Of a DNA stretch of 64,000 nt, positions 38,768 through 57,348 are shown in pieces. The stretch is taken from NCBI RefSeq assembly GCF_000426645.1, contig NZ_AUFT01000012.1:124001-188000 (forward strand), written 5' to 3'. A model generated the notes under the pieces. The model did not search any database and had not been told where the DNA came from. It was given only the letters and a program-made list of their open reading frames with translations. The DNA comes from Nakamurella lactea DSM 19367 (GTDB lineage: Bacteria; Actinomycetota; Actinomycetes; Mycobacteriales; Nakamurellaceae). Both the position numbers and the translations under genes were made by a program. How positions within the stretch are numbered: the stretch's first letter is position 1; every line of letters begins with the position of its first letter.

Positions 38768-39781
38768 TCAGCCGGTGACCTGCTGCGGCGCGATCATCGC
38801 CTTCATCGAGGCGGGCTCCTGGCTGGCATTCAGCAGCGCCTCGACGGTCTGATCGAGCCGGAACCGCTGGGTCACCATCGTGGACACATCCACCCGGCCA
38901 CCGGCGATCAGCGAGATCGCGGTCGGCCAGGTGTGCCCGTACCGGTTGACCAGGCCGATGGTCAGCTCGTTCACGTTGAGCCGGGACAGTGCCAGCGTGA
39001 CGTCCTGCTTGGGCATGCCGACCATGGCCGCCCGGCCGTTCGGCCGCAGCCGCCACACACCGTCGGCCAGCGCCGTCGGTGCCCCCGAGCACTCCAGCAA
39101 CACGTCGAAGTCGTTGCGCTCGGACTCGCCCGCCCGCGCCGCCGTGAAGCCGAGCCGAGCGGCGAAATCGATGCGCCAGTCGGAGGTATCGGTGATCGTG
39201 ACGTCAGCGGCGCCGAACGCCCTGGCCGCCTGCGCGGCCATGATGCCGACCGGGCCGGCTCCGGTCACCAGCACGCTGTCGCCCGGCTGCAGTCCGGCGC
39301 GGTGGCACGCCCAGATGCCCACCGACAGTGGCTCGCACAGCGCACCGTCCTCGAACGACATGGTGTCCGGAAGGACGAACAGCTGACGTTCGTCGACGGC
39401 CATGTACTGCTGAAGCGATCCGTCGTACGGCGGGGTGGCGAAGAAGATCAGGTCGGGACACAGGTGGTAGCGGCCGGCCATGCATTCCCGGCAGTCCCGG
39501 CACGGCCGGCCGGGCTCGATCGCCACCCGGTCACCGACCCGGACGCCGGTGACGCCCGTGCCCACCTCGACGACGACCCCGGCGCACTCGTGGCCGAGGA
39601 TGATCGGCCCGTTCACCAGGTAGTCGCCGACGTAGCCGACGGTGAAGTACGCGGTGTCCGATCCGCAGACGCCGACGGCCTCCATCTTCACCACGGCGTC
39701 CCGCGGTCCAGGCGTCGGGTCGCCGACGTCCGAGATCTCGATGGTGCCAAGGGTCGGCATCACTGCGGCATAGTTGGTCAC
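38768..39781 (-). CDS. zinc-dependent alcohol/polyol dehydrogenase
   Basis: A 337-residue medium-chain dehydrogenase of the sorbitol/xylitol branch. Catalytic zinc ligands are in VGVCGSDTAYF and GHECAGVV with the later glutamate of CEPLSVG; the structural zinc loop is CRDCRECMAGRYHLC. The Rossmann motif is VTGAGPVGIMAAQAARAFGA, and the D in VTITDTSDWR suggests NAD. GTG overlaps the LacI stop (GTGA), so it is the last gene of the left arm of the divergent island. It probably oxidises the polyol or sugar taken up by the ABC importer. Confidence 0.88.
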   Translation of the reverse strand: MTNYAAVMPTLGTIEISDVGDPTPGPRDAVVKMEAVGVCGSDTAYFTVGYVGDYLVNGPIILGHECAGVVVEVGTGVTGVRVGDRVAIEPGRPCRDCRECMAGRYHLCPDLIFFATPPYDGSLQQYMAVDERQLFVLPDTMSFEDGALCEPLSVGIWACHRAGLQPGDSVLVTGAGPVGIMAAQAARAFGAADVTITDTSDWRIDFAARLGFTAARAGESERNDFDVLLECSGAPTALADGVWRLRPNGRAAMVGMPKQDVTLALSRLNVNELTIGLVNRYGHTWPTAISLIAGGRVDVSTMVTQRFRLDQTVEALLNASQEPASMKAMIAPQQVTG

Positions 39782-40872
39782 GGCGTCTGGCCTCCGGTGG
39801 CGAGAACGAGCTCGCGTGGCAGCGAGCCTCGGACGATCAGTTCAGGTTCGATGCACAAGGTCTCCGGCGGTTCCTGACTACCGGAGACCTTGTGCAGCAG
39901 TCGCTTCATCGCATGCGCGGCGACCTGCCGGGCCGGCAGCGCCACCGTCGACAGCGGGGGATCGAGGTAGCGGGCGAACGGCTGGTCGCCCCAGCCGATC
40001 ACCATGACATCGATGGGGACCCGCAGACCCTGCGCCCGCAGCGCGGCGTAGAGGCCGAGCGCGAAGTGGTCGTTGCCGAGCACGAAGGCATGGGGGCGGC
40101 GGCCCCGCTCGAACAGGTCGGTGGCGACCCGATGGGCGTCCTCCGCCTGCCACGGCAACCACGGCAGCGCGACGCTCGCCGACCGGCGGGTCGGGATCAG
40201 CACGATGTTGCGGCTGTCGAACGGGACGCCGCGGTCCTGAAGCGCCAGCCGGAACCCGGCGATCCGGTCGCGCACCGTCGAGATCTGCAGATCCTCTTCG
40301 ATGAGGACGACGTCGGTCGCCCCGCGATCGAGCACTGCGTGCGTCGTCATCCGCATTCCCGACACGTTGTCGTTGGCGTAGAGATCCGCGTTCAGATGGG
40401 CGATGTTCCTGCTCACCAGCACCAGTGGCAGACCGGCCCGGGTCAGCCCGTCGTACGCGTGCGAGTCGTTGCTGACCGGAACCGCGAGGATGCCGTCGAC
40501 CCCGGAACGCAGTGCCGCGGCGACCGCAGCCACCTCTCGGTCCTCGGATTCCTCGGACAGCAGCAACAGCAGCGTGTATCCGGCTTCGATCGCGCGTGAC
40601 TCCGCCTCACTGACCAACTCCGCGAAGAACGGATTGAACAGGTTGGTGACGATCATCGCGATGGTCTGGCGTGAACCGAGGACCAGCGATCGGGCGTGGA
40701 TGTTCGGCACGTAGCCGATCCGCTCGGCCTCCGCCTTGATCCGCTGCCTGGTTGCCTCACCGACTCCCGGCCTCTCGTTGAGGGCACGGGAGACGGTGTT
40801 CACCGACAGCCCGACGACCTGTGCGACATCCTTGAGGGTCGTTCGGTGCGGATTGCTACCGACTTCCTGCAC
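39778..40872 (-). CDS. LacI-family transcriptional regulator of the divergent island
   Basis: A 364-residue repressor with the LacI HTH (TLKDVAQVVGLSVNTVSRAL, hinge RIGYVPNIHARSLVLGS) and a periplasmic-binding-protein-like effector domain. It probably binds the palindromic TAnCGnTA elements in the control region at 42222-42482 and releases them on binding the island's sugar-like inducer. It follows gene B1 by 36 bp and is translationally coupled to the dehydrogenase. Confidence 0.9.
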   Translation of the reverse strand: MQEVGSNPHRTTLKDVAQVVGLSVNTVSRALNERPGVGEATRQRIKAEAERIGYVPNIHARSLVLGSRQTIAMIVTNLFNPFFAELVSEAESRAIEAGYTLLLLLSEESEDREVAAVAAALRSGVDGILAVPVSNDSHAYDGLTRAGLPLVLVSRNIAHLNADLYANDNVSGMRMTTHAVLDRGATDVVLIEEDLQISTVRDRIAGFRLALQDRGVPFDSRNIVLIPTRRSASVALPWLPWQAEDAHRVATDLFERGRRPHAFVLGNDHFALGLYAALRAQGLRVPIDVMVIGWGDQPFARYLDPPLSTVALPARQVAAHAMKRLLHKVSGSQEPPETLCIEPELIVRGSLPRELVLATGGQTP

Positions 40873-40908
40873 GACGCGCTCCTACCGTTCGACCGATCCG
40901 CTTCGATG

Positions 40909-41250
40909 TCACTCCTTGAGCTCAAGGTAGATGCGGAGCGACGGAGAACTCTCGCCCGCCACCTTGCTGGTCGTCAGTCGCAGCCAGTGCCCGAACTGCG
41001 CCACGGGGATCGAGACCATTCCGACCGCCTCGGTCTCGCGCGCGGCCACGGACTCGTGGTCGATCCAGCTGATGCCGTCGGGCGAGATCTGCACCTGGAT
41101 CGAGACCCGGCAGCCAGGGGCGGGCCGCAGGAACTGGACGAACCACCTGGCCTCGCCGGCCCAGGCCACTTCGAACGGATCGGTCGAATGGACGGTATCG
41201 AGGTCGACCCCGCGCTCGATGACCGCACTTTGCGATTGTCGCATCGCCAT
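40909..41250 (-). CDS. uncharacterised protein B1 (paired with A1)
   Basis: A 113-residue protein, predicted all-beta, without signal peptide or membrane segment. It shares VSIQVQISPDGISW and IPVAQFGHWLRLT with B2 (LALGVEVSPDGINW and LPVGQFGNWLRLT), at equivalent positions. SPDGxxW and GxWLRL recall sugar-binding or tail-fibre-like beta-sandwich modules, but I cannot name a family. Several start codons are clustered (GTG, GTG, ATG, ATG); I took the ATG at 41250. It directly follows A1 and precedes lacI. Confidence 0.7.
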   Translation of the reverse strand: MAMRQSQSAVIERGVDLDTVHSTDPFEVAWAGEARWFVQFLRPAPGCRVSIQVQISPDGISWIDHESVAARETEAVGMVSIPVAQFGHWLRLTTSKVAGESSPSLRIYLELKE

Positions 41251-41252
41251 GA

Positions 41253-42221
41253 TCACCACCCCGCCGAGATCACGACGGAATCCAGGAACAGGAAGTTGCG
41301 CACACCGCTGACGGTCCTCGCGGAGAAGTAGAAGTTCAGCAGGTTCTCCAGCGACTCGTACTTGTCGGCGTACGGCGGAACGGGCACGCCCCGCAGATCC
41401 ATCACGTCATTGTTGAACTGCAGCTCGACGTTGGAGCGGGTGCTGGTGTCGATCAAGAACCGCAGATAGTGCCAGTTGATCTTGGTCGGCACTTCGTTGT
41501 AGCAGGTCTCGACGCGGTCGTCGGACAGGTACCGCCAGTCGTTCGGGTCGGGGGCGGTGAAGTCGGCGCCGTACTCGTAGTCGTGCACCCCCTCGTGCCG
41601 CTCGTGCGGGGTGGGTTCAGGAACAACCGGATAGGCCCACTTCTGGATCAGGTGTCCGTCGGCATCGGCGTTCACGAAACGCATGACGTTGTGGTACCTG
41701 ACGCCCTCGGTGCACAGGTCCGTGGCCACGGTGAACGATCCGAACTGTGCCTCCGACGGATGCGAGTTCGCGTCCCAGGTGATGTCCCCGAAGGAATTGC
41801 TCTCCTGTTCGGTGCCGGAGAGGTTCGCCTCGGTCTTCCAGGCCAGGTACGCCTCGATCTGCAGCAGGCCGCGACCGCTCATCGTCAGCCGCCGGATGCC
41901 GGTGGCGCTGTGCCCGCGGTGTGCCCGGGTCGCGAGCTTCATCGAGTAGGTGCCGGACATCGCACCGTGCGTGCCGACGTCGAAGAAATTCGCGTTGGAC
42001 AACTGCGGGGGTCGCATGTCCCGAAAGTGTCGGTCCAACGACTCGAGGTCGCCTCGGCCGTTGTAGTTGCCGCCCAGTTCGACCCAGCCGTGCAGGCCGT
42101 CGTTGAAGTCGTCGAACGTGAGGATCCGCCGCAGGGGGTTGAACTTCGACAGCCGGCCGTCGCTGCTGCGCAGCGCACCGCGCAGTGCGTCGGCCAACCC
42201 GCTGATGTCGGTGGTGGTCAC
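41253..42221 (-). CDS. uncharacterised protein A1 (paired with B1)
   Basis: A 322-residue protein, probably cytoplasmic and beta-rich. It shares with A2 the N-terminal FNPLRRILTFDDFNDGLHGW (A2: FNPLARVITYDDFDKGFNGW), GTYSMKLATRA (GTYSLKLTTAP), INWHYLRFLIDT (LNWLYFRLLVDI) and the C-terminal FLFLDSVV (HLFLDSIV). The DDFxDGxxGW start and FLDSVV end resemble jelly-roll carbohydrate-binding modules, but the lack of a signal peptide is odd for that. GTG at 42221 has AGGAG five bases upstream; the longer open frame upstream runs through the control region. No catalytic motif is recognised. Confidence 0.75.
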   Translation of the reverse strand: MTTTDISGLADALRGALRSSDGRLSKFNPLRRILTFDDFNDGLHGWVELGGNYNGRGDLESLDRHFRDMRPPQLSNANFFDVGTHGAMSGTYSMKLATRAHRGHSATGIRRLTMSGRGLLQIEAYLAWKTEANLSGTEQESNSFGDITWDANSHPSEAQFGSFTVATDLCTEGVRYHNVMRFVNADADGHLIQKWAYPVVPEPTPHERHEGVHDYEYGADFTAPDPNDWRYLSDDRVETCYNEVPTKINWHYLRFLIDTSTRSNVELQFNNDVMDLRGVPVPPYADKYESLENLLNFYFSARTVSGVRNFLFLDSVVISAGW

Positions 42222-42482
42222 CGCTGCTCCTAGGAGTGGGTTGCGCGCTGCCGCCGTCGGCATCGTCGCGCTCACATTAGCGTTACCGAAGATCGCCGTC
42301 CAGAGGCGCCGCGCAATTGACAGCACCTTGCGATCCAACGAGGAAGTGCTTGCTGTGAAAGGCACATCGATCTGTTGACATATGACCATCAATGCGACAG
42401 TGTGCATGAACGATAATGTTGCGGGTCGACGGAGATCTCATGCGACGGCGACGGCAACCACGACATCCAGCGGAGGTGCGGG
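42222..42482. promoter_or_regulatory. divergent control region of the A/B-transporter island
   Basis: This 261-bp region lies between the two arms. The minus strand carries AACGCTAATGT (42284-42274), and the plus strand AACGATAATGT (42409-42419), facing the two arms. Each contains TAATGT, a -10-like box, and a TAnCGnTA core (perfect on the left, one mismatch on the right), as LacI operators do. A TTGACA occurs at 42375-42380 but has no well-spaced -10. The GGAGG at 42472-42476, six bases before the GTG, is the transporter ribosome-binding site. Confidence 0.6.
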
Positions 42483-43403
42483 GTGCTCGGCTACGTCGCA
42501 CGACGCCTGTTGCTGGCCGTGTTCGTACTGTGGGGCGCCGTCACCGTCGTGTTCATCGTCGTGCGCCTGGTGCCCGCCGATCCGGCCGTGCTGATCGCCG
42601 GTGAGACCGCGACGCCCGAGCAGATCGCCGCACTGCGGGCGGAGATGGGCCTCGACCGGCCGTTGCTGCTGCAGTACCTGGGGTATCTGGGCAAGGCGGT
42701 GACGGGCAACTTCGGCAACTCCTACACGCAGAACGTCCCGGTGACGCAGCTCATCGGTCAGGTACTGCCGAACACCGTGCTGCTGGCGGTGCTGGCCTGC
42801 GTCTTCGCGGTGATCGTGAGTTTCCCCCTCGGCCTGCTGGCCGCGTTGCGGGTCAACCGATTCAGCGACCGCGCTGTCACCACCCTGTCGCTGTTGACCC
42901 AGTCACTCCCGGGTTTCTGGGTCGGCATCGTGCTCATGCTGGTGTTCTCGCGGAAGCTGAACTGGCTGCCGAGCGCCGGCCTGGACTCGCCGGCGAGTCT
43001 GGTGCTCCCGACGATCACGCTGGCCTTGCCGTTCATCGCGATCCTGGTCCGGATGACCCGCAGCGGCCTGCTCGAAGTGATGGGCGAGGGCTATATCGTC
43101 ACCGCCCGGTCCAAAGGCCTGCCGGAGCGAACGGTGATCTTCCCGCACGCGATCAGGAACGCGACCATCCCGATCATCACCATCGTCGGGCTGGAGTTCG
43201 GCACCCTGCTCGGTGGTGCGGTGATCACCGAGACGGTGTTCTCGTTCCCCGGCATCGGCCGGCTGCTGGTCACCTCGATCCAGGTCCGTGACTACGCGGT
43301 CGTGCAGGCCTGCGTGCTGGTGATCGCCGTGGCGTTCGTGCTGGTCAATCTGATCATCGATCTGCTGTACGGGTACCTCGACCCGAGGGTGAGGCTGTCG
43401 TGA
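42483..43403 (+). CDS. ABC importer permease, DppB type
   Basis: A 306-residue membrane permease with six predicted helices. It opens with the typical LGYVARRLLLAVFVLWGAVTVVFIVVRL, and the EAA-loop region is MTRSGLLEVMGEGYIVTARSKGLP, which contacts the ATPases. It starts with GTG after a strong GGAGG. It is the first gene of the right arm and overlaps dppC by four bases. Dpp/Opp-type importers carry peptides, nickel or sugars; the associated genes here favour a non-peptide substrate. Confidence 0.92.
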   Translation: MLGYVARRLLLAVFVLWGAVTVVFIVVRLVPADPAVLIAGETATPEQIAALRAEMGLDRPLLLQYLGYLGKAVTGNFGNSYTQNVPVTQLIGQVLPNTVLLAVLACVFAVIVSFPLGLLAALRVNRFSDRAVTTLSLLTQSLPGFWVGIVLMLVFSRKLNWLPSAGLDSPASLVLPTITLALPFIAILVRMTRSGLLEVMGEGYIVTARSKGLPERTVIFPHAIRNATIPIITIVGLEFGTLLGGAVITETVFSFPGIGRLLVTSIQVRDYAVVQACVLVIAVAFVLVNLIIDLLYGYLDPRVRLS

Positions 43404-44293
43404 CGACTGCGGCACGGGCCGGCGCGGCCGCGCGCACGATGCGCCGTGCCCGCAGGGCGCGACGGGGGGTCCGGCTGCGGATCGTCATCCCGCTGATCAT
43501 CGTGGCGCTCTACGTCGTCGGGGCGATCCTGGTCCCGATCCTGTATCACTTCGACCCGCTGCACACCGAGCTGCTGTACCGCCTCAAGCCGCCCGGGACG
43601 ACGGTGGCAGATGGGAAGACGGCGATCTTCGGTACCGACCAGGTCGGGCAGGACATGTTCGCCCAGATGATGATGGGTGCCAGGGTGTCACTCACCGTCG
43701 GTGCGCTCACCCTGCTGTTCGCCGGTGTCTTCGGTGTCCTCGTCGGCCTGCTGTCCGGTCACTTCGGAGGCTGGATCGACATGGCCCTGATGCGGATCGC
43801 CGACATCCAGTTGGCCTTCCCGTCCATCCTGTTGGCGATCCTGCTGGCGTCGGTGCTCGGCCAGGGTCTGACGAACATCATCATCGTGCTGTCCATCGCC
43901 AGCTGGGTCGTCTTCGCCCGGGTCACCCGCAGTCAGGTATTGGCGCTGAAGAACCGGGAGTACGTCGATGCGGCCCGGACGCTCGGCGCCGGCCATCTGC
44001 ACCTGATGTTCCGGACCCAACTGCCGGGCTGTCTGGCGCCGATCCTGGTCGTCGCAACGGTGGAGTTCGGCCACGTGATCCTCGCCGAGGCGGCGTTGTC
44101 CTTCCTCGGTGTCGGCGTTCCGCTCGGCGTCCCCAGCCTGGGCAGCTCGATCCAGGCCGGCACCGCCTACCTGACGACGGCCTGGTGGATCTCCACCCTG
44201 CCCGGGATCGCCCTGGCCATCCTGGTACTGGCCACCGGTATCCTCGGCGACGCCCTGCGCGACCGGTTCGACCCGCGGCTGCGGAGCGCCTGA
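43400..44293 (+). CDS. ABC importer permease, DppC type
   Basis: A 297-residue permease. A basic N-terminus (MRRARRARRGVRLR) precedes the first helix; the DppC hallmark FGTDQVGQDMFAQMMMGARVSLTVG is followed by the EAA loop VTRSQVLALKNREYVDAARTLG. The GTG overlaps the DppB stop, and its own stop overlaps the first ATPase by one base. Confidence 0.92.
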   Translation: MTTAARAGAAARTMRRARRARRGVRLRIVIPLIIVALYVVGAILVPILYHFDPLHTELLYRLKPPGTTVADGKTAIFGTDQVGQDMFAQMMMGARVSLTVGALTLLFAGVFGVLVGLLSGHFGGWIDMALMRIADIQLAFPSILLAILLASVLGQGLTNIIIVLSIASWVVFARVTRSQVLALKNREYVDAARTLGAGHLHLMFRTQLPGCLAPILVVATVEFGHVILAEAALSFLGVGVPLGVPSLGSSIQAGTAYLTTAWWISTLPGIALAILVLATGILGDALRDRFDPRLRSA

Positions 44294-45330
44294 TGAGCCA
44301 GTCGACGCCGGTCGCCCTGGAGAAGTCGGTGCCACCGGACGCGCCGCTGTTGAGCGTGCAGAACCTGCAGGTGGAGTTCTCCACCTCCGCCGGAGTGGTG
44401 CGGGCGCTCGACGGGGTCAGCTTCGACGTCCGGCGGGGCGAGACCATCGCCATCCTGGGCGAATCGGGCTCCGGCAAGTCGGTCACCGCCCAGGCGATCA
44501 TGGCGCTGCTACCCAGGCCGGCCGGCTCCATTGTCGGCGGCAGCATTCGCTACGCAGACCGCGATCTGGTCACGCTCCCGGCCAAGGACGTCCGACGCCT
44601 GTGCGGCACCGAGATCGCGATGATCTTCCAGGACCCGCTGAGCTCGCTCAACCCGGTGTTCCGGGTCGGCTGGCAGATCGCCGAGCCGTTCCGGCGGCGC
44701 CTGGGCATCGACAAGCGACAGGCGCTGGCCAAGGCCCTTGAGCTGCTCGACCGGGTCGGCATCCCGGACGCCGAGCGGCGCATCCGTGACTATCCGCACC
44801 AGTTCTCCGGTGGCCAGCGGCAACGCATCATGATCGCGATGGCCATTGCGTTGGAACCGAAACTGCTCATCGCGGACGAGCCGACCACCGCCCTCGACGT
44901 GACCGTGCAGTCACAGGTGATGAAGCTGCTGGCCAACCTGCAGGCCGAGACCGGCATGGGGATGATCCTCATCAGCCACGACCTCGGCGTGGTCGCCGAC
45001 GTCGCCAAGCGGGCCGCGATCATGTACGCCGGCCGCATCGTCGAGGCCGGCACGATCAGGGAGGTCTACGACCATCCCGCCCACCCCTACACCCGGGGGC
45101 TGCTCGAATCGATTCCGTCGACGACGGTCATCGGAGAACGACTTACGCCGATCCCCGGCGGCCCGCCGAACCTGCTCGCGCTGCCGACCGGCTGCGCATT
45201 CCACCCGCGCTGTCCGCACGCGATCGACAGGTGTCGTGACGAGATACCGCAGCTGCGACGACCGGACGGCTGGGAGCCGACCCACGTCGCCGCCTGCTTC
45301 CGGTCGGAGGAGGTGCTCGCCCATGACTGA
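44293..45330 (+). CDS. ABC importer ATPase, DppD/OppD type
   Basis: A 345-residue ATPase with Walker A GESGSGKS, Q-loop IFQDPLSSLNP, signature FSGGQRQRI, Walker B LLIADEPTTALD and H-loop ISHDLGVVAD. The C-terminal oligopeptide/dipeptide domain holds a Cys-rich CAFHPRCPHAIDRC segment that binds an iron-sulfur cluster in some homologues. The start overlaps the dppC stop by one base and the end overlaps dppF by eight. Confidence 0.93.
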   Translation: MSQSTPVALEKSVPPDAPLLSVQNLQVEFSTSAGVVRALDGVSFDVRRGETIAILGESGSGKSVTAQAIMALLPRPAGSIVGGSIRYADRDLVTLPAKDVRRLCGTEIAMIFQDPLSSLNPVFRVGWQIAEPFRRRLGIDKRQALAKALELLDRVGIPDAERRIRDYPHQFSGGQRQRIMIAMAIALEPKLLIADEPTTALDVTVQSQVMKLLANLQAETGMGMILISHDLGVVADVAKRAAIMYAGRIVEAGTIREVYDHPAHPYTRGLLESIPSTTVIGERLTPIPGGPPNLLALPTGCAFHPRCPHAIDRCRDEIPQLRRPDGWEPTHVAACFRSEEVLAHD

Positions 45331-46162
45331 CCGGCCGGCCGGACCGGCACCGTCCCCGGTACTTCGGGTCCAGCACCTGCGGGTCGCCTATCCGATCCGG
45401 TCCTCCGTGATGTTGCGCCGGGTCGGGGAGATCGTCGCCGTCAGCGACGTCACCTTCGACGTCGGGCCGGGTGAGACCGTCGGCCTGGTGGGGGAGTCCG
45501 GGTCCGGCAAGTCGACGATCGCCCGCGCCGTGATCGGACTCGTCGCGGCCACCGCCGGCTCGATCGAGTTCGAGGGCCGCGACATCACCCGGTACGGCCC
45601 GCAGCAGCTCAAGGCCGTCCGCCGGGACATGCAGATGGTCTTTCAGGACCCGTACGCCTCGCTGAACCCCCGGCTGACGGTGCGCGACCAGATCGCCGAG
45701 TGCTGGCGAGTGCATCGCGGGCAGCTGCCGCGCGCGCACTGGACGGACGAGGCGAAGCAGCTGATGGAGCGGGTCGGGCTCAACCCGGACTACAGCGACC
45801 GCTACCCGCATCAGTTCTCCGGCGGTCAGCGGCAACGGATCTGCATCGCCCGCGCGCTCGCTCTGCGGCCGAAGCTGATCATTTGTGACGAGGCCGTCAG
45901 CGCCCTCGATGTGTCGGTCCAGGCGCAGGTGCTCAACCTGCTGGCCGACCTACAGGACGAGTTCGGCCTGTCCTACCTGTTCATCTCGCACGACCTGTCG
46001 GTGATCGAGCACCTCAGCGACAGGGTGTTGGTGCTCAACAAGGGTGAGGTGGTGGAGGAGGGCGCGGTGCGGCAGATCTTCGCCGACCCGCGGGACGCAT
46101 ACACCCGAGCGTTGCTCGCCGCAGTCCCGGTGGTCCGGCCCTGGCTGGAGTCCCCGACATGA
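45323..46162 (+). CDS. ABC importer ATPase, DppF/OppF type
   Basis: A 279-residue ATPase with Walker A GESGSGKS, Q-loop VFQDPYASLNP, FSGGQRQRIC, Walker B LIICDEAVSALD and SHDLSVIEHL. It is shorter than most OppF proteins: the C-terminal Cys-rich domain is lacking, so it ends soon after YTRALLAAVP. It partners the upstream ATPase. The stop overlaps the next gene by four bases. Confidence 0.92.
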   Translation: MTDRPAGPAPSPVLRVQHLRVAYPIRSSVMLRRVGEIVAVSDVTFDVGPGETVGLVGESGSGKSTIARAVIGLVAATAGSIEFEGRDITRYGPQQLKAVRRDMQMVFQDPYASLNPRLTVRDQIAECWRVHRGQLPRAHWTDEAKQLMERVGLNPDYSDRYPHQFSGGQRQRICIARALALRPKLIICDEAVSALDVSVQAQVLNLLADLQDEFGLSYLFISHDLSVIEHLSDRVLVLNKGEVVEEGAVRQIFADPRDAYTRALLAAVPVVRPWLESPT

Positions 46163-46821
46163 GCGGCACCGTCACGATTCATCTTGTCCGCCACGCCGAA
46201 TCGCGGTGGAACGTCGAGGGCCGCTACCAGGGCCAGACCGATTCCGGGCTGACGGATGACGGCGTCCGCCAGGCCGCGGCTCTCGGCGAGGCACTCGCCG
46301 ACCTGGTGCCCGCACCCGACCTGGTGATCTCCAGCGACCTGCCGCGGGCAATGGACACCTGCCGGCCCTACGCTGCCCGGATCGGCGCCAGGGTGGTCAC
46401 CGACCGGGCACTGCGAGAGATCAGCGTCGGTGACTGGTCCGGCCGCACCTTCGGCGAGATCGCCGCCGAGCACCCGGACACGGTCGCCGCGGTCGAGGAC
46501 GGTGTCGACCTGCCGCGTGGCGGAGGCGAGACCTTCGCCCAGACACGCAGCCGGGTCGCCGCGGCGCTGGCCCGCGCGGTCGGGCGGCTGCCCGACGGTG
46601 ACGGGGATCGGGCCATGGTCGCCGTCAGCCACGGCGGGCCGATCCGGGTGGCCGCAGCGGCCGCCCTCGGTCTGCCGTCGCCCGGTCACACCGCATTCTC
46701 CGCACCCGACAACTGCTCCGTCACGTCCATCAGGATCAAACCCGGCGGAGCCCGGGAGTTGTTGCGGTACAACCACACCGTCGCGCCCGCCGGCACCGCC
46801 GACGCTGCGGAGCTCCGATGA
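46159..46821 (+). CDS. histidine phosphatase (phosphoglycerate mutase family)
   Basis: A 220-residue cytoplasmic phosphatase. The catalytic RHG-type motif is LVRHAESRWNVEGRYQGQTD, with RHA replacing RHG. The second histidine is in VAVSHGGPIRV. Fixed within the transporter operon (4-bp overlaps on both sides), it probably acts on a phosphorylated substrate or intermediate of the imported compound rather than in glycolysis. Exact substrate unknown. Confidence 0.85.
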   Translation: MSGTVTIHLVRHAESRWNVEGRYQGQTDSGLTDDGVRQAAALGEALADLVPAPDLVISSDLPRAMDTCRPYAARIGARVVTDRALREISVGDWSGRTFGEIAAEHPDTVAAVEDGVDLPRGGGETFAQTRSRVAAALARAVGRLPDGDGDRAMVAVSHGGPIRVAAAAALGLPSPGHTAFSAPDNCSVTSIRIKPGGARELLRYNHTVAPAGTADAAELR

Positions 46822-47594
46822 CCACCGTCGTCGTCCAGACGCACAACCTGTGGGGCGACACCTGGGCGCAGGAACGCAGCGCCGCCCTCGGCCGGCTGTA
46901 TTGCGCCCGGCCACCCGATCTGTTGGCGACCCAGGAGCTCCGCCCGTGGTCGCGCGACGTGCTGGATGCGGCGATGCCCGATCACGAGAGGGTCGACGAC
47001 GGTTTCCCCGGCTGGCAGCGGCAGTCGAACATCTGGTGGCGAAGCGATCTGTTCGCCCGGGTCGGCCACGGCGCCGAGGACGTCGGGATTCTCGACGCGG
47101 ACGCCCGGTTGTTCTGGGTCAGGCTCCGTCGCGCCGACGGCGGCGGCACACTGCTGATGTCCACCGCCCACCTGTCCTACGCGGGTACCCCGATAGAGCT
47201 GGCATCCGGGGTGAATCAGCGCGTTCCGCAGGCGTTGCGGGTCATTGAAGAGCTGGCCAAGATCGCCGGTGAGGACGAGCCGGTGCTGTTCGCGGTCGAC
47301 ATCAACGACATCGGCGTCCCGCTCTGGACCTTCGGCAACGGCGGATATCTCGACGCCTTCAGCGCATTGGGACGGCACTGCCCGCCCACCCATCCGGTGA
47401 TCCCCAGCGGCTTCGCGGAGACGGTCGGCACCACCAAGTCTCCAGTCGCATCACCGCCGAAGGCGATCGACTGGATCTATTTCCGGGGACCCGTGCGGCC
47501 ACGAGTCGCCGAGGTCATCGAGTACTTCCACCGAGGGGTGTCGCCGAGCGATCACGCCGCGGTGGTCGCGGCGTTCAGCCTTGACCCGCAGTGA
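46818..47594 (+). CDS. endonuclease/exonuclease/phosphatase (EEP) fold hydrolase
   Basis: A 258-residue protein with the EEP order of motifs: VQTHNLWG, LLATQELRPW (metal glutamate), MSTAHLSYAG, LFAVDINDIG in place of GDFN, AIDWIYFRG and a final SPSDHAAVVAAF histidine. Such enzymes cut phosphodiesters or phosphomonoesters, including inositol phosphates and nucleic acids. Its place next to a phosphatase within a transporter operon suggests action on a small phosphoester, not DNA. It overlaps the phosphatase gene by four bases. Confidence 0.78.
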   Translation: MTTVVVQTHNLWGDTWAQERSAALGRLYCARPPDLLATQELRPWSRDVLDAAMPDHERVDDGFPGWQRQSNIWWRSDLFARVGHGAEDVGILDADARLFWVRLRRADGGGTLLMSTAHLSYAGTPIELASGVNQRVPQALRVIEELAKIAGEDEPVLFAVDINDIGVPLWTFGNGGYLDAFSALGRHCPPTHPVIPSGFAETVGTTKSPVASPPKAIDWIYFRGPVRPRVAEVIEYFHRGVSPSDHAAVVAAFSLDPQ

Positions 47595-47639
47595 ATGTCC
47601 ATGGCACGGACCGTGTCACCCGATCGAAGGAGAACTCGC

Positions 47640-49289
47640 ATGAAAGTAGGACGCAAGAGATTCGCGGGCGTCGTGACGGCACTGACGATCGCGGCGTTGG
47701 CCCTCGCGGGCTGCTCCAACAGCGACAGTTCCGGTAGCACCGATACCGGCACCACCGCAGCAGGAAGCGCTACCTCCGAGGGTGCCGGCGCCACCACCAG
47801 TAACGGCGGCTCCGACGCCCAGAGCGCAGCACCGGCCGGCAATGCGCTGCCCGACGATCAACAGAACCTGACGTTCGTGCCGGCCTATGGGTGGGCGGGT
47901 TCCGACATCTCCAAGAACCCGCTGGAGATCGGCGTGAACATGGCGATCTCCCAGGTGCTGGATTCCCTGGTCAAGTTCGACCAGGACATGAAGATCGTGC
48001 CGGGCCTGGCCACCGAGTGGTCGTGGAACACCCCGACCGAGCTGGTTTTCAAGCTCCGCACCGGCGTCACCTTCAGCGACGGGACCCCGTTCACTTCGGC
48101 GGACGTGAAGGGCAGCCTGGAACGGTACATCGCGGCCGAGGGACCGTTGGCCGCCGTGCTGGCGCCGATCGAAAAGATCGAGGCCCCCGACGATGCGACG
48201 GTGAAGATCACCACGAATGCGCCGACCGGCACCCTGGTCGGAGTGTTGTCGATGGTCAAGATCGGCAAGGCCGAGTTCTCGCACACGAAGTCGACGGCCG
48301 CCGACGACGCGTACTGGGCGAAGCCGATCGGCACCGGCCCTTTCGTCATCACCGATTACGTGGCGAACGATCACTTCAGCTTCGCCCGCAACGACAAGTA
48401 CTGGGGTGAGAAGGCGAAACTGAAGACGCTGACGATGAAGCAGATCACCGACGTCAACGCCAAGATCACTGCGCTGTCGAACGACCAGGTCCAGGTGCTC
48501 AACGACCTGACCTACGACCAGTTCGACACCGTGAAGGCGCTGCCCAACGTCACCCTGTCGCAGTTCGACAGCCTGAGCTACTACTTCGTCTGGTTCGAAA
48601 ACTCCCGCAAGCCGCTGGACAACCCGGATGTGCGCCGGGCGATGTGGATGGCGCTGGATCTGCCGACCATCGTGTCCAGCCTCTACGGTGACTCCCGGCA
48701 GACGATGGACTCGTTCTGCCCGTCCACCGCGTTCGGCTGCCTCCCGGCCAAGGACATGCCCACCTACGACCCGGAAGGGGCGAAGAAACTGCTGGCGGAT
48801 GCCGGCTACCCCAACGGGTTCAGCATCGACATGATCTTCAGTCTGGCGAATGCCACCGACAGCGCGCTGGCGCAGACGCTGATCTCGTCCTGGAAGGCCA
48901 TCGGGGTGACGGTCGAGCCGCGCGGTCTGGACTCGGCGACCTGGCTCAAAGAGTTCCAGGCCCTGAACTGGTACATGGACTTCCAGCCGAACCAGACGCT
49001 GACCGGTGACGCGGACTACACGCTCAATCGCCTGTACAGCTGCGTGGCCAAGCGGCTGGGCTACTGCAACCCCGATCTGGACAAGCTGATGACCAAGGCG
49101 CAGCAGTCGAACGACAAGGCCGAGCGACTGAAGCTGTACCAGCAGGTCGTGGACATCATGGCGAAAGACGTTCCGGCCATTCCGCTGTTCCAGACCAAGG
49201 TCAACGTGGCGTACAAGAACAACGTCAAGGGCCTGGTCGTTCCGCCGACCGAGTACATCGACTTCAGCACCGTCTACCTGGCCTCCTGA
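47640..49289 (+). CDS. ABC substrate-binding lipoprotein, DppA/OppA family (SBP_bac_5)
   Basis: A 549-residue extracytoplasmic receptor. The lipoprotein signal (MKVGRKRFAGVVTALTIAAL then ALAGCSNS) puts the lipid anchor on C25. A Ser/Thr/Gly linker follows. The SBP_bac_5 core shows FKLRTGVTFSDGTPFTSADV, then KGSLERYIAAEG and NPDVRRAMWMALDLPTIV. ATG at 47640 is preceded by AAGGAG at a seven-base spacing. It lies sixth in the operon rather than first, unusual for this transporter class, but its own strong ribosome-binding site and the hairpin after its stop may raise its yield. Confidence 0.92.
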   Translation: MKVGRKRFAGVVTALTIAALALAGCSNSDSSGSTDTGTTAAGSATSEGAGATTSNGGSDAQSAAPAGNALPDDQQNLTFVPAYGWAGSDISKNPLEIGVNMAISQVLDSLVKFDQDMKIVPGLATEWSWNTPTELVFKLRTGVTFSDGTPFTSADVKGSLERYIAAEGPLAAVLAPIEKIEAPDDATVKITTNAPTGTLVGVLSMVKIGKAEFSHTKSTAADDAYWAKPIGTGPFVITDYVANDHFSFARNDKYWGEKAKLKTLTMKQITDVNAKITALSNDQVQVLNDLTYDQFDTVKALPNVTLSQFDSLSYYFVWFENSRKPLDNPDVRRAMWMALDLPTIVSSLYGDSRQTMDSFCPSTAFGCLPAKDMPTYDPEGAKKLLADAGYPNGFSIDMIFSLANATDSALAQTLISSWKAIGVTVEPRGLDSATWLKEFQALNWYMDFQPNQTLTGDADYTLNRLYSCVAKRLGYCNPDLDKLMTKAQQSNDKAERLKLYQQVVDIMAKDVPAIPLFQTKVNVAYKNNVKGLVVPPTEYIDFSTVYLAS

Positions 49290-49300
49290 AGTAGCTCCGC

Positions 49301-49337
49301 ACGCCGGGGGCGGCGACCCTGTCTCCGCCCCCGGCGT
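49301..49337 (+). terminator. 13-bp hairpin after the substrate-binding protein gene
   Basis: ACGCCGGGGGCGG (49301-49313) pairs perfectly with CCGCCCCCGGCGT (49325-49337) around an 11-nt loop. No U-tract follows and the operon continues, so it probably protects the upstream mRNA from 3' decay or partly terminates, raising binding protein over the downstream genes. Confidence 0.7.
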
Positions 49338-49358
49338 CCCACCACTGCCGAGAAGGAC

Positions 49359-50291
49359 ATGATGCAACGCATTCTCAGCTATGAGCGTGGCCTCGAGCGG
49401 TTCAACCCGCTGGCCCGTGTGATCACCTACGACGACTTCGACAAGGGCTTCAACGGCTGGTTGGACCTGACGCCGAACTTCGTCTACGACAACTACGAAT
49501 CGTTCGATTCCGCGGTCGACCTGACGAGTTGGGCGCCGGCGATGCTCTCCAGCGCATCGATGCGGTTCGCCTCGTCCCACGGTTCGATGGAGGGCACCTA
49601 CTCGCTCAAGCTCACCACCGCGCCGAACGCAGGTCCGCCGACCGAGCCGCCGGCCGCCGGGTCGATGGGTGTCGCTCTCAAGAGGCTGTCCCGGTTCGGT
49701 GATCCCTCGAAGATCCAGATCGAGGCGTGGTACTCCTACACCCCGGCGCAGGACCGGGTCGGCCTCGGCGAGCAGGACCTGCGTGCGATCGGCTTCTACT
49801 TCGATGTGCAGGACTCGGAGTACCGCTACATGCCGGGTGTCCGATACGTCAACGCCATCGACGGCAAGCCGGTCAAACGCTGGCAGTACTGGAAGGCGTC
49901 CGACGGTGTCACCCGCGCCGACTGGAACTTCGGCGTCGAGGACGGCTGGTGCAAGGTGGGCATCGACAACCTCTGGTACGGGCGCCGCAACCCGGACGGC
50001 TCGTCGGACGGCTACCAGTGGCTTCCCGGCGGCGAACAGGACCTGCTGTACAACGAAAGCCCCGACAAGCTGAACTGGCTGTACTTCCGGCTGCTGGTGG
50101 ACATCGAAAAGCGGGAGTACATCGAACTGCAATCGATGGATACCGTTTTCGACCTGCGCGGGATTTCGCCGACGCTGGTGGAGCGGTACTCCTCGATCGA
50201 CAACCTGATCAATCCGATCTTCTACGTCGAGACGGACACGAACCGCAGCGTCCACCTCTTCCTCGATTCCATCGTCTACTCGACCGAGTGA
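49359..50291 (+). CDS. uncharacterised protein A2 (paired with B2)
   Basis: A 310-residue relative of A1, about the same length and collinear. Conserved blocks are FNPLARVITYDDFDKGFNGW at the N-terminus, GTYSLKLTTAP, a tryptophan/tyrosine-rich middle (VKRWQYWKASDGV, NLWYGRRNPDG), LNWLYFRLLVDI and HLFLDSIV. No signal peptide, no membrane helix, no recognised catalytic motif. ATG at 49359 (a second follows at once) is preceded by AGAAGGA. Identity to A1 is modest, so the two have probably diverged in role rather than being a recent duplication. Confidence 0.75.
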   Translation: MMQRILSYERGLERFNPLARVITYDDFDKGFNGWLDLTPNFVYDNYESFDSAVDLTSWAPAMLSSASMRFASSHGSMEGTYSLKLTTAPNAGPPTEPPAAGSMGVALKRLSRFGDPSKIQIEAWYSYTPAQDRVGLGEQDLRAIGFYFDVQDSEYRYMPGVRYVNAIDGKPVKRWQYWKASDGVTRADWNFGVEDGWCKVGIDNLWYGRRNPDGSSDGYQWLPGGEQDLLYNESPDKLNWLYFRLLVDIEKREYIELQSMDTVFDLRGISPTLVERYSSIDNLINPIFYVETDTNRSVHLFLDSIVYSTE

Positions 50292-50304
50292 GCGGGATAC
50301 GTTC

Positions 50305-50628
50305 ATGCAGAACACGAATACCTCCGTCCTGGCGCGCCGGGTGCGGATCTCCGACGACTACGCCACACTGCCGTACGAGGCGGGTTGGGCGACCGAGGCC
50401 GTCTTCTTCCTGCAGACCGAGGGCGATCACGCCGATCTGGCGCTCGGCGTCGAGGTCTCCCCGGACGGCATCAACTGGCTGCGGCGATCGGCTGCGACCC
50501 TCGCCGCTGCCGATTCGCTCATCGACCTGCCGGTCGGGCAGTTCGGGAACTGGCTGCGGCTGACCGTGTCCGGCGCCAGCGAGCGGCAGCCTGCCCGCAT
50601 CCTCATTCACCTGAACCTCAAGGGGTGA
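50305..50628 (+). CDS. uncharacterised protein B2 (paired with A2)
   Basis: A 107-residue predicted beta-sandwich protein related to B1 through LALGVEVSPDGINW, LPVGQFGNWLRLT and the ILIHLNLKG end (B1: LRIYLELKE). It follows A2 by 13 bp and precedes the FAD oxidoreductase by five, so the order A-B is kept on both arms of the island. Function unknown; a complex between A and B is my inference from their conserved pairing. Confidence 0.7.
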   Translation: MQNTNTSVLARRVRISDDYATLPYEAGWATEAVFFLQTEGDHADLALGVEVSPDGINWLRRSAATLAAADSLIDLPVGQFGNWLRLTVSGASERQPARILIHLNLKG

Positions 50629-50633
50629 CGACG

Positions 50634-52016
50634 ATGCGGCCCGGACCGACCGTCCGTGAGGCCGCCCGCGACCTACCGGTCTTCGCCGCGGTCGACGTCC
50701 TCGTCGTCGGCGGCGGGCCGGCGGGCGTGAGCGCTGCGGTCGGCGCGGCCCGGATGGGTGCGAAAACCCTGCTACTGGAACGCCATGGCTTCCTCGGCGG
50801 TATGTGGACCGCCGGAATGGTGTTGACCCTCGCGGGCTACAACTGCTGGCTCCGCCCGTACGTCCGGGCGGTCGACGGCGTCCCCGGCGAGTGGCTTCGT
50901 CGCGCCGTCAGCCTCGGTGGCGCGGAAGACAACGCCGGTTTCGTGCTCAACAGTGAGCCGGAGGTGATGAAACTCGTCGCGGACGAGTTGCTGGCGGAGG
51001 CCGGCGCCGAGACCCTGTTCCACACCTGGGCCGCCGCCCCCATTGTCCAGGGCGGTGCGGTGGTGGGTCTGTGCATCGAGAACGTCGACGGGCGGTCGGC
51101 CGTGCTGGCCGGAGCCACGGTGGACTGCACGGGTGACGGCGAGGTGTTCGCCCGTGCCGGGAATGCCTGGGAGAAAAGTGATTCGCTGCAGCCGATGACC
51201 ATGCCGTTCCGGATGGTCGGCGCCGCACTCGATCCGGCGATTTCGCACAGTGCTCCACAGTGTGTCCCCATCGGGCCCGAACCGGGGATGCTCGGCGAGC
51301 CCGTTCTTGGCGACCACTCTTCGCGTCGCAACGATGTTCCCTTCGACCCCAGGCTGATGAGGCAGCAGCGCGCCGCCGGGCGGCTGCCCTCCTACGGCGG
51401 ACCGTGGTTCGGCGGGTTGGACAAGGATGTGTTGTGGGTCAACAGCACTCGGCACTACGGCGACGCATCGAACGTTCGCGACCTGACCCGCGCCGAGATC
51501 GAGGGGCGTCGTTCGAGCCGGGCGATCAGCGAGTTCCTGACCAGGACGCCGGGACTGCAGGGAGCCCGGCTGCTGCAGACGAGCACCCAGATCGGTGTTC
51601 GGGAGACCCGGCGACTCGTCGGGAACTACACGATGACGGGTAACGACGTCCGGTCGGGCACGGCCTTCAACGACTCCGTCGCCGTCGGCTGCTGGCCGAT
51701 CGACGTGCACCCGGCGGACGGGGAGGTCGGCATGCACCAGATGTACGTCCCGCTCCCGTACGGCATTCCCTACCGGTCGCTCATTCCGCGGACCGTCGAG
51801 GGGTTGGTGGTCGCTGGTCGATGCATCTCCGTCGACCGTGATGCGCTCGGCTCCACGCGGGTGGGTGCCACCTGCGCTGCCATCGGGCATGCGGCGGGTG
51901 TGGCGGCCGCGCTGGCCGCCGGCGACGGCGTCTCGCCGTCCCGCGTCGACGTGGCGGCGTTGCAGGGTGCGCTCATCGAGCAGGGTGCCATCGTCTCGCC
52001 CGGCCAGGTCGGCTGA
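50634..52016 (+). CDS. FAD-dependent oxidoreductase (FAD_oxidored family)
   Basis: A 460-residue flavoprotein. The dinucleotide motif VLVVGGGPAGVSAAVGAARMGA is followed by LLLERHGFLGGMWTAGMV, a signature of PF12831-type oxidoreductases, and the C-terminal FAD contact is EGLVVAGRCISVDRDALGSTRVGATCAAIGHAAGVAAAL. Members often sit in carbohydrate-catabolic loci, although few have known substrates. ATG at 50634 was chosen with AAGGGG upstream; a GTG three codons earlier overlaps the B2 stop and is an alternative. It ends the right arm. Confidence 0.86.
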   Translation: MRPGPTVREAARDLPVFAAVDVLVVGGGPAGVSAAVGAARMGAKTLLLERHGFLGGMWTAGMVLTLAGYNCWLRPYVRAVDGVPGEWLRRAVSLGGAEDNAGFVLNSEPEVMKLVADELLAEAGAETLFHTWAAAPIVQGGAVVGLCIENVDGRSAVLAGATVDCTGDGEVFARAGNAWEKSDSLQPMTMPFRMVGAALDPAISHSAPQCVPIGPEPGMLGEPVLGDHSSRRNDVPFDPRLMRQQRAAGRLPSYGGPWFGGLDKDVLWVNSTRHYGDASNVRDLTRAEIEGRRSSRAISEFLTRTPGLQGARLLQTSTQIGVRETRRLVGNYTMTGNDVRSGTAFNDSVAVGCWPIDVHPADGEVGMHQMYVPLPYGIPYRSLIPRTVEGLVVAGRCISVDRDALGSTRVGATCAAIGHAAGVAAALAAGDGVSPSRVDVAALQGALIEQGAIVSPGQVG

Positions 52017-55805: not shown

Positions 55806-55904
55806 GCGCTTATCAACATCGCATGCGCTTGCCAACTGGACGATTCTGGGACGGGCGTGACGGAAGTGCACTATTTCGCAAGCGCGTGAGAAGTTGATAA
55901 GCGC
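55806..55904. repeat. 27-bp inverted repeat in the helicase-xylulokinase divergent region
   Basis: The left arm GCGCTTATCAAC-N7-GCGCTTGC (55806-55832) recurs inverted on the right (55878-55904); 24 of 27 positions pair, with 45 bp between. Each arm also repeats GCGCTT within itself. It lies between two divergent genes, so a pair of operator sites is likely; a 99-bp mini-transposon remnant is an alternative. Confidence 0.65.
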
Positions 55905-55932
55905 GATCGGGGGGCGTGCAAGGATCGGCGGC

Positions 55933-57348
55933 ATGACGGGATCGACAGTGGTCGGAGTGGACTCGTCCACCCAGTCCTGCAAGGTGCTGGTCTGTGACGC
56001 GGAGACCGGCCGGGTGCTGCGGTCCGGCCGGGCGGACCACCCGCAGACCCTCGAGGCGGCGCCGGGCCAGTGGTGGCAGGCCTTCGAGTCGGCCTCGGAC
56101 GGACTGCTGGACGGTGCGTCGGCGATCGCGGTGGCCGCCCAACAACACGGCATGGTCACGCTCGACGCCGACGACCGGGTGGTCCGTGACGCCCTGCTGT
56201 GGAACGACCTGCGTTCGGCCGCCGACACCGCCGACCTGATCGACGAGCTCGGCGCGGCCGAGTGGGCCGCAGCCGTCGGTAGCGTCCCGGCGGCCAGTTT
56301 CACCGTCACCAAACTGCGCTGGTTGGCCCGCAACGAGCCGGCCAACGCCGCCCGGGTCGCGCAGGTCATGCTGCCGCACGACTGGCTGACCTGGCAGCTG
56401 TCCCGCAGCGGCGACCCGGCCGCGGACGCGGTGACCGACCGCGGCGACGCCTCCGGCACCGGCTACTTCTCCCCGGCCACCGGTTGCTACCGGCTCGACC
56501 TGCTGGAGCGGGCGTTCGGCGGCGCCCCGCGGCTGCCCCGGCTGGCCGACCCCGGCGAGCAGGTCGGTCGGACCTCGTCCGGCGCGCTGGTCGGACCCGG
56601 CACCGGCGACAACATGGGCGCGGCCCTCGGGCTGGGCGCCGGACCCGGTGACGTCGTGCTGTCGCTGGGTACCAGCGGCACCGTTTTCGGGGTGGCCGAC
56701 GAGCCGTGTGCCGACGCGACGGGGTACGTCAGCGGATTTGCCGACGCCACCGGCCGGTTCCTGCCGCTGGTCTGCACGCTGAACGCCGCCAGGGTGCTGA
56801 CCTCGACCGCGGCCATGCTCGGCACCGATCTGGCCGGCCTCGACGAACTGGCACTGCGCGCCGAACCCGGTGCCGGCGGGCTCACCATGCTGCCGTACCT
56901 GGACGGCGAACGCACCCCGAACCTGCCCGACGCCACCGGATCGCTGCACGGCCTGACCCGCGCCGCAATGACCCCGGAGAACCTGGCCAGGGCCGCCGTC
57001 GAGGGCATGCTGTGCAGCCTGGCCGACGGCCTCGATGCGCTGACGGCGACCGGCTTCCGCGCCCGCCGGCTGCTGGTGATCGGCGGCGCCTCGGCGTCCC
57101 GTGCGGTCCGGGCCTCGCTGGCCGAGCTGTTCGGCCTGCCGGTGGCGCTGCCGGACCCGGCCGAGTACGTCGCGCTGGGCGCCGCCCGGCAGGCCGCTTG
57201 GGTGCTGGCCGGCGGCCGGCCCGACGCGCTGCCGGATTGGCCGGTGGCCGCGACGGCGTTGCCCGACCCGTCGGCAGCCGACCTGGAGCGTGGCCAGGCG
57301 GTGCGTGCCAGGTACGCGGCCATCCGGCTGGCCACCTACGGGGTCTGA
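55933..57348 (+). CDS. xylB: xylulokinase
   Basis: A 471-residue FGGY-family sugar kinase that would phosphorylate D-xylulose. ATPase-fold motifs are VVGVDSSTQSCKVLVCD at the N-terminus, VAAQQHGMVTLD with the catalytic aspartate region DALLWNDLRS, GTGDNMGAALGLGAGPGDVVLSLGTSGTVF in the second domain and LLVIGGASASRAVRASLAELF near the C-terminus. A xylose isomerase or transporter is not adjacent. It starts 162 bp from the divergent helicase, with the long inverted repeat between. Confidence 0.9.
   Translation: MTGSTVVGVDSSTQSCKVLVCDAETGRVLRSGRADHPQTLEAAPGQWWQAFESASDGLLDGASAIAVAAQQHGMVTLDADDRVVRDALLWNDLRSAADTADLIDELGAAEWAAAVGSVPAASFTVTKLRWLARNEPANAARVAQVMLPHDWLTWQLSRSGDPAADAVTDRGDASGTGYFSPATGCYRLDLLERAFGGAPRLPRLADPGEQVGRTSSGALVGPGTGDNMGAALGLGAGPGDVVLSLGTSGTVFGVADEPCADATGYVSGFADATGRFLPLVCTLNAARVLTSTAAMLGTDLAGLDELALRAEPGAGGLTMLPYLDGERTPNLPDATGSLHGLTRAAMTPENLARAAVEGMLCSLADGLDALTATGFRARRLLVIGGASASRAVRASLAELFGLPVALPDPAEYVALGAARQAAWVLAGGRPDALPDWPVAATALPDPSAADLERGQAVRARYAAIRLATYGV

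Follow-up and report, generated by a model that had tools for sequence, protein, structure and literature searches.

We analyzed a 64,000-nucleotide stretch of Nakamurella lactea DSM 19367 (contig NZ_AUFT01000012.1, positions 124,001 to 188,000; hereafter the window, in whose numbering coordinates are given unless another record is named) that contains, between positions 38,768 and 52,016, an island with two divergent arms in which two adjacent genes, A and B, occur twice, as A1-B1 and A2-B2, together with a Dpp-type importer. A and B, which belong to the families DUF6772 and DUF6385, constitute a genuine, conserved and widespread module that is unstudied. The best explanation that we can offer, to which we give a probability of about 0.5, is that together they form a single carbohydrate-active enzyme of the cytoplasm, in which A is the catalytic and B the accessory part and which acts on an imported sugar alongside the oxidation or dehydration of that sugar. 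This explanation is based on the pairing of both genes, the N-termini of their products, their predicted folds, their conserved residues, and the genomic company in which they recur.

The presence of one A-B pair on each divergent arm was confirmed for all four genes: A1 (41253..42221, minus strand, 322 amino acids) and B1 (40909..41259, minus strand) on the left, and A2 (49359..50291, plus strand) and B2 (50305..50628, plus strand) on the right. A1 and A2 share 29% identity (E 6e-37), and B1 and B2 share 35% (E 1e-22). The GTG at 42221 was chosen as the A1 start from the length of its homologues (about 320 amino acids), the longer frame reaching 42407. Both A proteins matched the DUF6772 profile (PF20562; cut-off 27 bits) over nearly all of its 284 positions, with 393.1 bits and positions 3-284 for A1 (scored on frame 41253-42407), and 310.2 bits and positions 3-283 for A2. 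B1 and B2 matched DUF6385 (PF19912) with 27.7 and 29.5 bits, barely above the cut-off of 26.8, and the B genes of three proteobacterial records that were scanned fell under it. The original prediction had stated that no family function covers A and B; Pfam indeed assigns a function to neither family, although both proteins do match curated ones, so that what is added here to these function-less families is their fixed pairing and its setting. The profile searches that it had proposed as a check matched neither A nor B to an enzyme or phage-structural family with an assigned role. No NCBIfam model was found for A1, A2, B1, or B2 at E ≤1, solved structures searched with the A2 sequence yielded no meaningful match, and a literature search returned no mention of DUF6772, DUF6385, PF20562, or PF19912. 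A phage structural origin was rejected: matches to PHROGs were weak and confined to families without an assigned function (best E 0.0076), viral contigs yielded no confirmed relative, and none was found in phage records.

Conservation of the pairing was followed in 74 loci of public genomes, drawn from the best 80 of 256 confirmed relatives. These loci contained 88 A frames, four of which stop at a contig edge; B lay directly downstream on the same strand in 77 of the other 84. Among the seven exceptions, an FAD_oxidored gene sits between A and B in three (L021, L025, and L036), an overlong frame has B behind its A-like part in one (L050), and a single A has no B directly behind it in each of L043, L046, and L063. 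The L050 frame (Curtobacterium, L050:9965-13585) stays open to 1206 amino acids, beyond the usual end of A, and contains B in another frame. At the level of whole genomes, 37 loci led to the genomes of 35 relatives (L025 being left out and two loci sharing one genome), which together with the N. lactea genome made 36; they were picked for carrying A, and their counts say nothing on B without A elsewhere. Here 58 A and 56 B matches were found, 54 of the latter 7-60 bases behind an A match and the remaining two (G404 and G416) about 1.4 kb behind A, with FAD_oxidored in between. The numbers of A and B agreed in 35 of the 36 genomes, the exception being G405. In this Pseudolysinimonas genome a third A copy, close to an intact pair, is broken into two fragments with one internal stop (G405:C1:808492-809411). 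The conserved pairing and order that had been read from one island hold up in these loci and genomes. N. lactea itself carries two A and two B genes in total, all within this island. Among 396 sampled genomes of its phylum N. lactea was the sole carrier of either family, and A was absent from all 16 other genomes of the genus; on this account the module is rare and patchy within the phylum and genus sampled. Over longer distances, A-B loci occur in records titled Actinobacteria, Chloroflexi, Spirochaetes, Chitinophaga, Latescibacterota, Proteobacteria, and others, including many metagenome assemblies.

The genes around the module were labeled with hidden Markov models built from clusters of the loci's own neighbors, whose identities were checked on representatives; gene calling relied on a simple longest-frame script, which dropped some overlapping genes (for instance, FAD_oxidored in L023), and a missing call is no proof of absence. 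A transporter was called in 63 of the 74 loci, in overlapping classes: Dpp-type in 16, CUT1 sugar-type in 37, and SusCD, sodium symporter or MFS in 18. Among the 11 loci without one, seven had less than 12 kb of available DNA and four had about 21 kb. These counts did not bear out a tie between A-B and Dpp importers in particular, the importer being variable, nor did A and B turn out to lie mostly apart and far from transporters. FAD_oxidored was called in 27 loci, which makes its recurrence beside A-B frequent without being universal, and the proposed setting of uptake plus oxidation stood in general terms. Its enrichment was also visible at genome level: at least 18 of 163 copies in the 36 genomes (about 198 Mb) lay within 10 kb of an A gene, against about one expected from 58 stretches of about 21 kb, the 18 being a lower bound counted by hand from coordinates and the 163 a per-genome sum that is possibly low, with at most 36 candidates scored per genome. 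LacI-like genes were called in 34 of the 74 loci, MR_MLE dehydratases in 14, and sulfatases in 13. Five Chitinophaga loci share the order SusC, SusD, sialidase-like gene, NanM-symporter, A, and B (upstream SusC/SusD uncalled in L039). Four annotated plasmid records, of seven matches, contain a GntR-family regulator, an MR_MLE dehydratase, A, and B, with sugar permeases close by; in three of them permeases and an SDR gene form one gene run with A-B, and in the fourth (Rhizobium) the opposite strand carries the permeases together with an SMP-30 lactonase and a KR-domain gene. A Pfam tally of 68 neighbor proteins, taken from 247 chosen unlabeled ones, revealed no dominant enzyme. The common theme of these loci is sugar uptake with oxidation or dehydration, and not one substrate. 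That A and B are so tightly linked across phyla, and for the most part beside sugar-uptake genes, suggests that present annotation misses a step of carbohydrate catabolism, and solving one member would allow substrate prediction for many unassigned sugar operons. As a separate arrangement, five Chloroflexi- or Anaerolineae-titled loci (L078, L079, L081, L084, and L086) have in common a block made up of a CUT1 importer, the A-B pair, a long FAD_oxidored gene, and a gene for a PhyH-type dioxygenase, accompanied by sulfatase genes.

The model of A2 (predicted local distance difference test, pLDDT, 90.1) consists of strands with two short helices only, and its predicted fold is a concanavalin-A-like jelly roll that can be aligned over most of the domain. 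B is predicted to be a small beta sandwich (pLDDT of the B2 model, 95.9). Among the matches listed, the best structural matches of A were lectin carbohydrate-recognition domains; those of B included carbohydrate-binding modules, lower in the lists. More than 12 polar or charged residues of A are invariant across many phyla. A simple hydrophobicity test detected no export-type N-termini in A-B, the test being a crude one that also passes the FAD_oxidored and DAO proteins of the window and misses 5 of 16 SBP5 and 10 of 19 SBP1 proteins. From these features we infer that A would hold the active site in its jelly roll and that the B sandwich would stabilize A or complete its pocket; a physical A-B complex is plausible. 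In the island, a LacI repressor would govern the two divergent operons and the Dpp-type importer would take up a sugar conjugate, from which an EEP hydrolase and a histidine phosphatase may remove phosphate; FAD- and zinc-dependent enzymes would then oxidize the imported sugar, and A1-B1 and A2-B2 would each cleave or rearrange the substrate, every pair being directed at a different part or isomer of it. As a first guess, the reaction would be the cleavage of a glycosidic bond, by hydrolysis or elimination, since no known glycosidase was seen in this island or in the four plasmid loci; a step on a free sugar or sugar acid comes close behind.

Several observations weigh against a two-part carbohydrate-active enzyme. 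The fold of A is common to non-catalytic lectins, which occupy most rows of the matches listed, and Foldseek template modeling scores for A were low, about 0.3-0.4. The catalytic motif of GH16 enzymes is ExDx(x)E; it was not present in A1 or A2, and of 79 A proteins four contain it, at no consistent position. Comparison of A with one 3-keto-disaccharide hydrolase, the single sequence tried, gave an hhalign probability of 0.1. Dpp genes are common, with 32 SBP_bac_5 places in the N. lactea genome, and the transporter counts lack a background rate. FAD_oxidored was uncalled in 47 of the 74 loci. Some loci do carry genes of glycosidase type, namely sialidase-like BNR genes (9 of 74 loci), an alpha-amylase gene (L040), and one GH4 among the 68 neighbor proteins scanned, and therefore another enzyme could cleave the glycoside there. 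Finally, the neighbors are too varied to name one substrate.

A narrower form of this enzyme would be a keto-glycoside eliminase, in which FAD_oxidored, SDR, or zinc dehydrogenase would make a ring ketone and A-B would expel the aglycone or a second sugar. The enrichment of FAD_oxidored beside A agrees with it, and the combination of an oxidoreductase with one large and one small subunit mirrors CarA-CarB-CarC, the two-subunit C-glycoside eliminases being CarB-CarC and DgpB-DgpC. A 3-keto-disaccharide hydrolase (PF06439) lies directly behind A-B in Chitinophaga chungangae (L040:11293-11970). A heterodimeric eliminase is described in PMC10628242, where the two-subunit C-glycoside eliminases have a large and a small subunit that act after a sugar oxidoreductase, as would be the case here, but where the large subunit is a TIM (triosephosphate isomerase) barrel with Mn; the large subunit here is instead a predicted concanavalin-like jelly roll, nearly all beta, whose A2 model is no TIM barrel, and no metal site was identified. 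The missing FAD_oxidored calls also count against an eliminase. In 3-keto-glycoside pathways, according to PMC9007349, DUF1080 genes lie near sugar dehydrogenases and oxidation precedes cleavage, a likeness to the scheme proposed here; in a profile comparison A gave no match to the single DUF1080 protein tried, and PF06439 was absent from the Pfam matches of A1 and A2 at E ≤1. On balance an eliminase seems to us unlikely, and we would give similarly small odds to its full version, in which DUF6772 would supply a jelly-roll catalyst inside the cell and DUF6385 its obligate beta-sandwich partner, the two cleaving oxidized (keto) glycosides and having evolved apart from the TIM-barrel eliminases; if true, this would be a new class of two-subunit carbohydrate-cleaving enzyme fed by interchangeable importers. 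Another narrower or neighboring form, also improbable in our opinion, has A-B acting on a free sugar or sugar acid as a mutarotase, epimerase, lactonase, or hydratase of a non-phosphorylating oxidative route. The three proteobacterial plasmid operons with MR_MLE dehydratase, sugar permeases, A, B, and SDR resemble an aldonate-type route and their records list no lactonase within 9 kb, but the Rhizobium record has its SMP-30 lactonase besides A-B, which would make A-B superfluous there if it were just a lactonase, and the fold of A gives no pointer to any of these four chemistries. A non-catalytic sugar-binding pair, either a lectin-like sensor or a cytoplasmic carrier of the imported sugar, would account for the lectin domains at the top of the structural matches of A and for the carbohydrate-binding modules among those of B; however, the invariant residues of A exceed the apparent need of a lectin site and the LacI-like genes already supply a sugar-responsive type of regulator in many loci, which leaves such a pair quite doubtful. 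In predicted fold A is indeed like concanavalin-A-like lectins, glucanases, and alginate lyases, and it differs from such proteins in its N-terminus without export features, in the lack of the GH16 motif from A1 and A2, and in having a partner gene.

Two further proposals concern the substrate. Compatible with the two-part enzyme, and tentatively entertained by us as a possibility below even odds, is that the Dpp form of the island imports an agrocinopine-like sugar phosphodiester whose freed sugars are processed by A-B. Genes for histidine phosphatase and EEP hydrolase lie between the ATPase and binding-protein genes here and in L021, L025, L036, and L125 (EEP in L123), a hint from gene content that the substrate of the Dpp form may be a phosphodiester; on the other side, both were uncalled in L013, L022, L121, and L122, which do have Dpp genes and A-B. 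Among the solved relatives of the binding protein is AccA, an importer of agrocinopine according to PMC4526662 and PMC7356202, but the closest solved relative of the binding protein is 5u4o. Agrocinopine uptake likewise joins an SBP_bac_5-type binding protein to a phosphodiesterase for the imported sugar phosphodiester, whereas here A, B, and FAD_oxidored are present in addition. Another sugar phosphodiester is dealt with in PMC12807533. We consider it very unlikely that sialic acid, or a nonulosonic acid related to it, is the substrate of the A-B pathway. Sialidase-like BNR genes accompany some of the loci, and the Jiangella copy, by eye, keeps the residues aligned with the three Arg, the Glu, and the Tyr of the sialidase site; a NanM domain is also fused to a sodium symporter in Chitinophaga (scanned in L038). 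Against these, Phe replaces the first Arg of the triad in five Chitinophaga copies, no BNR gene was called in 65 of the 74 loci, and N. lactea encodes NanE separately, close to other genes of Dpp type. Sialic acid as a general substrate was downgraded; the N. lactea genome contains five BNR_2 places, none of them on the contig of the island, and a literature search on sialic acid importers found nothing. In Chitinophaga (L038-L042) as well as in actinobacterial records (L030, L031, L032, and L058), genes of this sialidase-like BNR subfamily immediately precede A-B or its symporter. The neighbors of NanE in N. lactea (L130; contig C15, 90000-109000) include a further Dpp-type binding protein with ATPases, and this locus seems to serve amino sugars or sialic acid independently of the island.

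Outward from the divergent promoter, the left arm of the island comprises, all on the minus strand, A1, B1, a LacI-family repressor (39778..40872; PF00356 and PF13377), and a zinc-dependent alcohol/sugar dehydrogenase (38768..39781; Pfam ADH_N and ADH_zinc_N), whose best NCBIfam models, threonine and scyllo-inosose dehydrogenase, were both below cut-off. On the right arm, all on the plus strand, follow Dpp-type permeases B (42483..43403; PF00528 and PF19300) and C (43400..44293; PF00528), ATPases D (44290..45330; PF00005 and PF08352) and F (45323..46162; PF00005, 126.4 bits), a histidine phosphatase (46159..46821; PF00300, 177.7 bits, with RHAE and SHGG motifs), an EEP-superfamily hydrolase, possibly a phosphodiesterase (46818..47594; PF03372, 26.3 bits for a cut-off of 24.5, with QE, DxN, and SDH motifs), an SBP_bac_5 substrate-binding protein (47595..49289; PF00496 match at C9:171991-173046, NCBIfam models below cut-off), A2, B2, and FAD_oxidored (50634..52016; PF12831, 356 bits). 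In the run that begins with permease B and ends with the EEP hydrolase, each gene overlaps the next by 4-8 bases, with starts that we picked, including those of both ATPases. The binding protein, two permeases, and two oligopeptide-type ATPases make up the Dpp/Opp-type importer that had been placed between the pairs, the oligo_HPY tail of ATPase F being partial and below cut-off (PF08352, 24 bits against 27.1). Of the enzymes said to surround the pairs, the zinc dehydrogenase and FAD_oxidored do flank them, but the histidine phosphatase and EEP hydrolase lie between them, inside the importer operon. No solved relative was found for the EEP hydrolase, and for FAD_oxidored the matches listed to solved structures covered little past the FAD-binding part.

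The two-pair layout, with B1-A1 divergent from a Dpp operon ending in A2, B2, and FAD_oxidored, recurs in Tessaracoccus (L013), Homoserinibacter (L021), Pseudolysinimonas (L022), and Microbacterium (L025 and L036), although the order of the last three genes differs and LacI was uncalled in L022; two or more A genes were present in 13 of the 74 loci. A1-type pairs stand with Dpp genes and no second pair in L121, L122, L123, and L125, and therefore the window unites two modules that also exist separately. A LacI-type operator-like palindrome was found by pattern match in the intergenic region between A1 and the importer operon (42403..42420, plus strand), the sole match in the window at up to three mismatches, with none in 100 shuffles. 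Palindrome-like sites were also found in the five sister islands, their presence there being partly by construction, as the pattern was derived from these same intergenic regions. Over the 74 loci the pattern gave nine sites, against one in one shuffle: seven in sister islands (one within the called start of permease B in L013), one at the A1 start in L015, which is independent since L015 was unused in building the pattern, and one in the SusC gene of L038, which is probably due to chance. On the A1 side, ACATTAGCGTTA (42274..42285) may represent another half of an operator; this 12-mer is shared with four of the five sister islands with at most one mismatch. The description of the island as LacI-controlled accordingly stands as to an operator-like site between the arms, and that this LacI represses them we infer.

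With regard to horizontal transfer, the guanine plus cytosine content is 64-69% across 40-52 kb and 69-76% in the flanks shown, and no tRNA genes were found in the window. About 3.9 kb past the island lies an FGGY-family sugar kinase gene (55894-57348), and an FGGY kinase gene is also located upstream of A-B in a Sphingomonas locus (L033).

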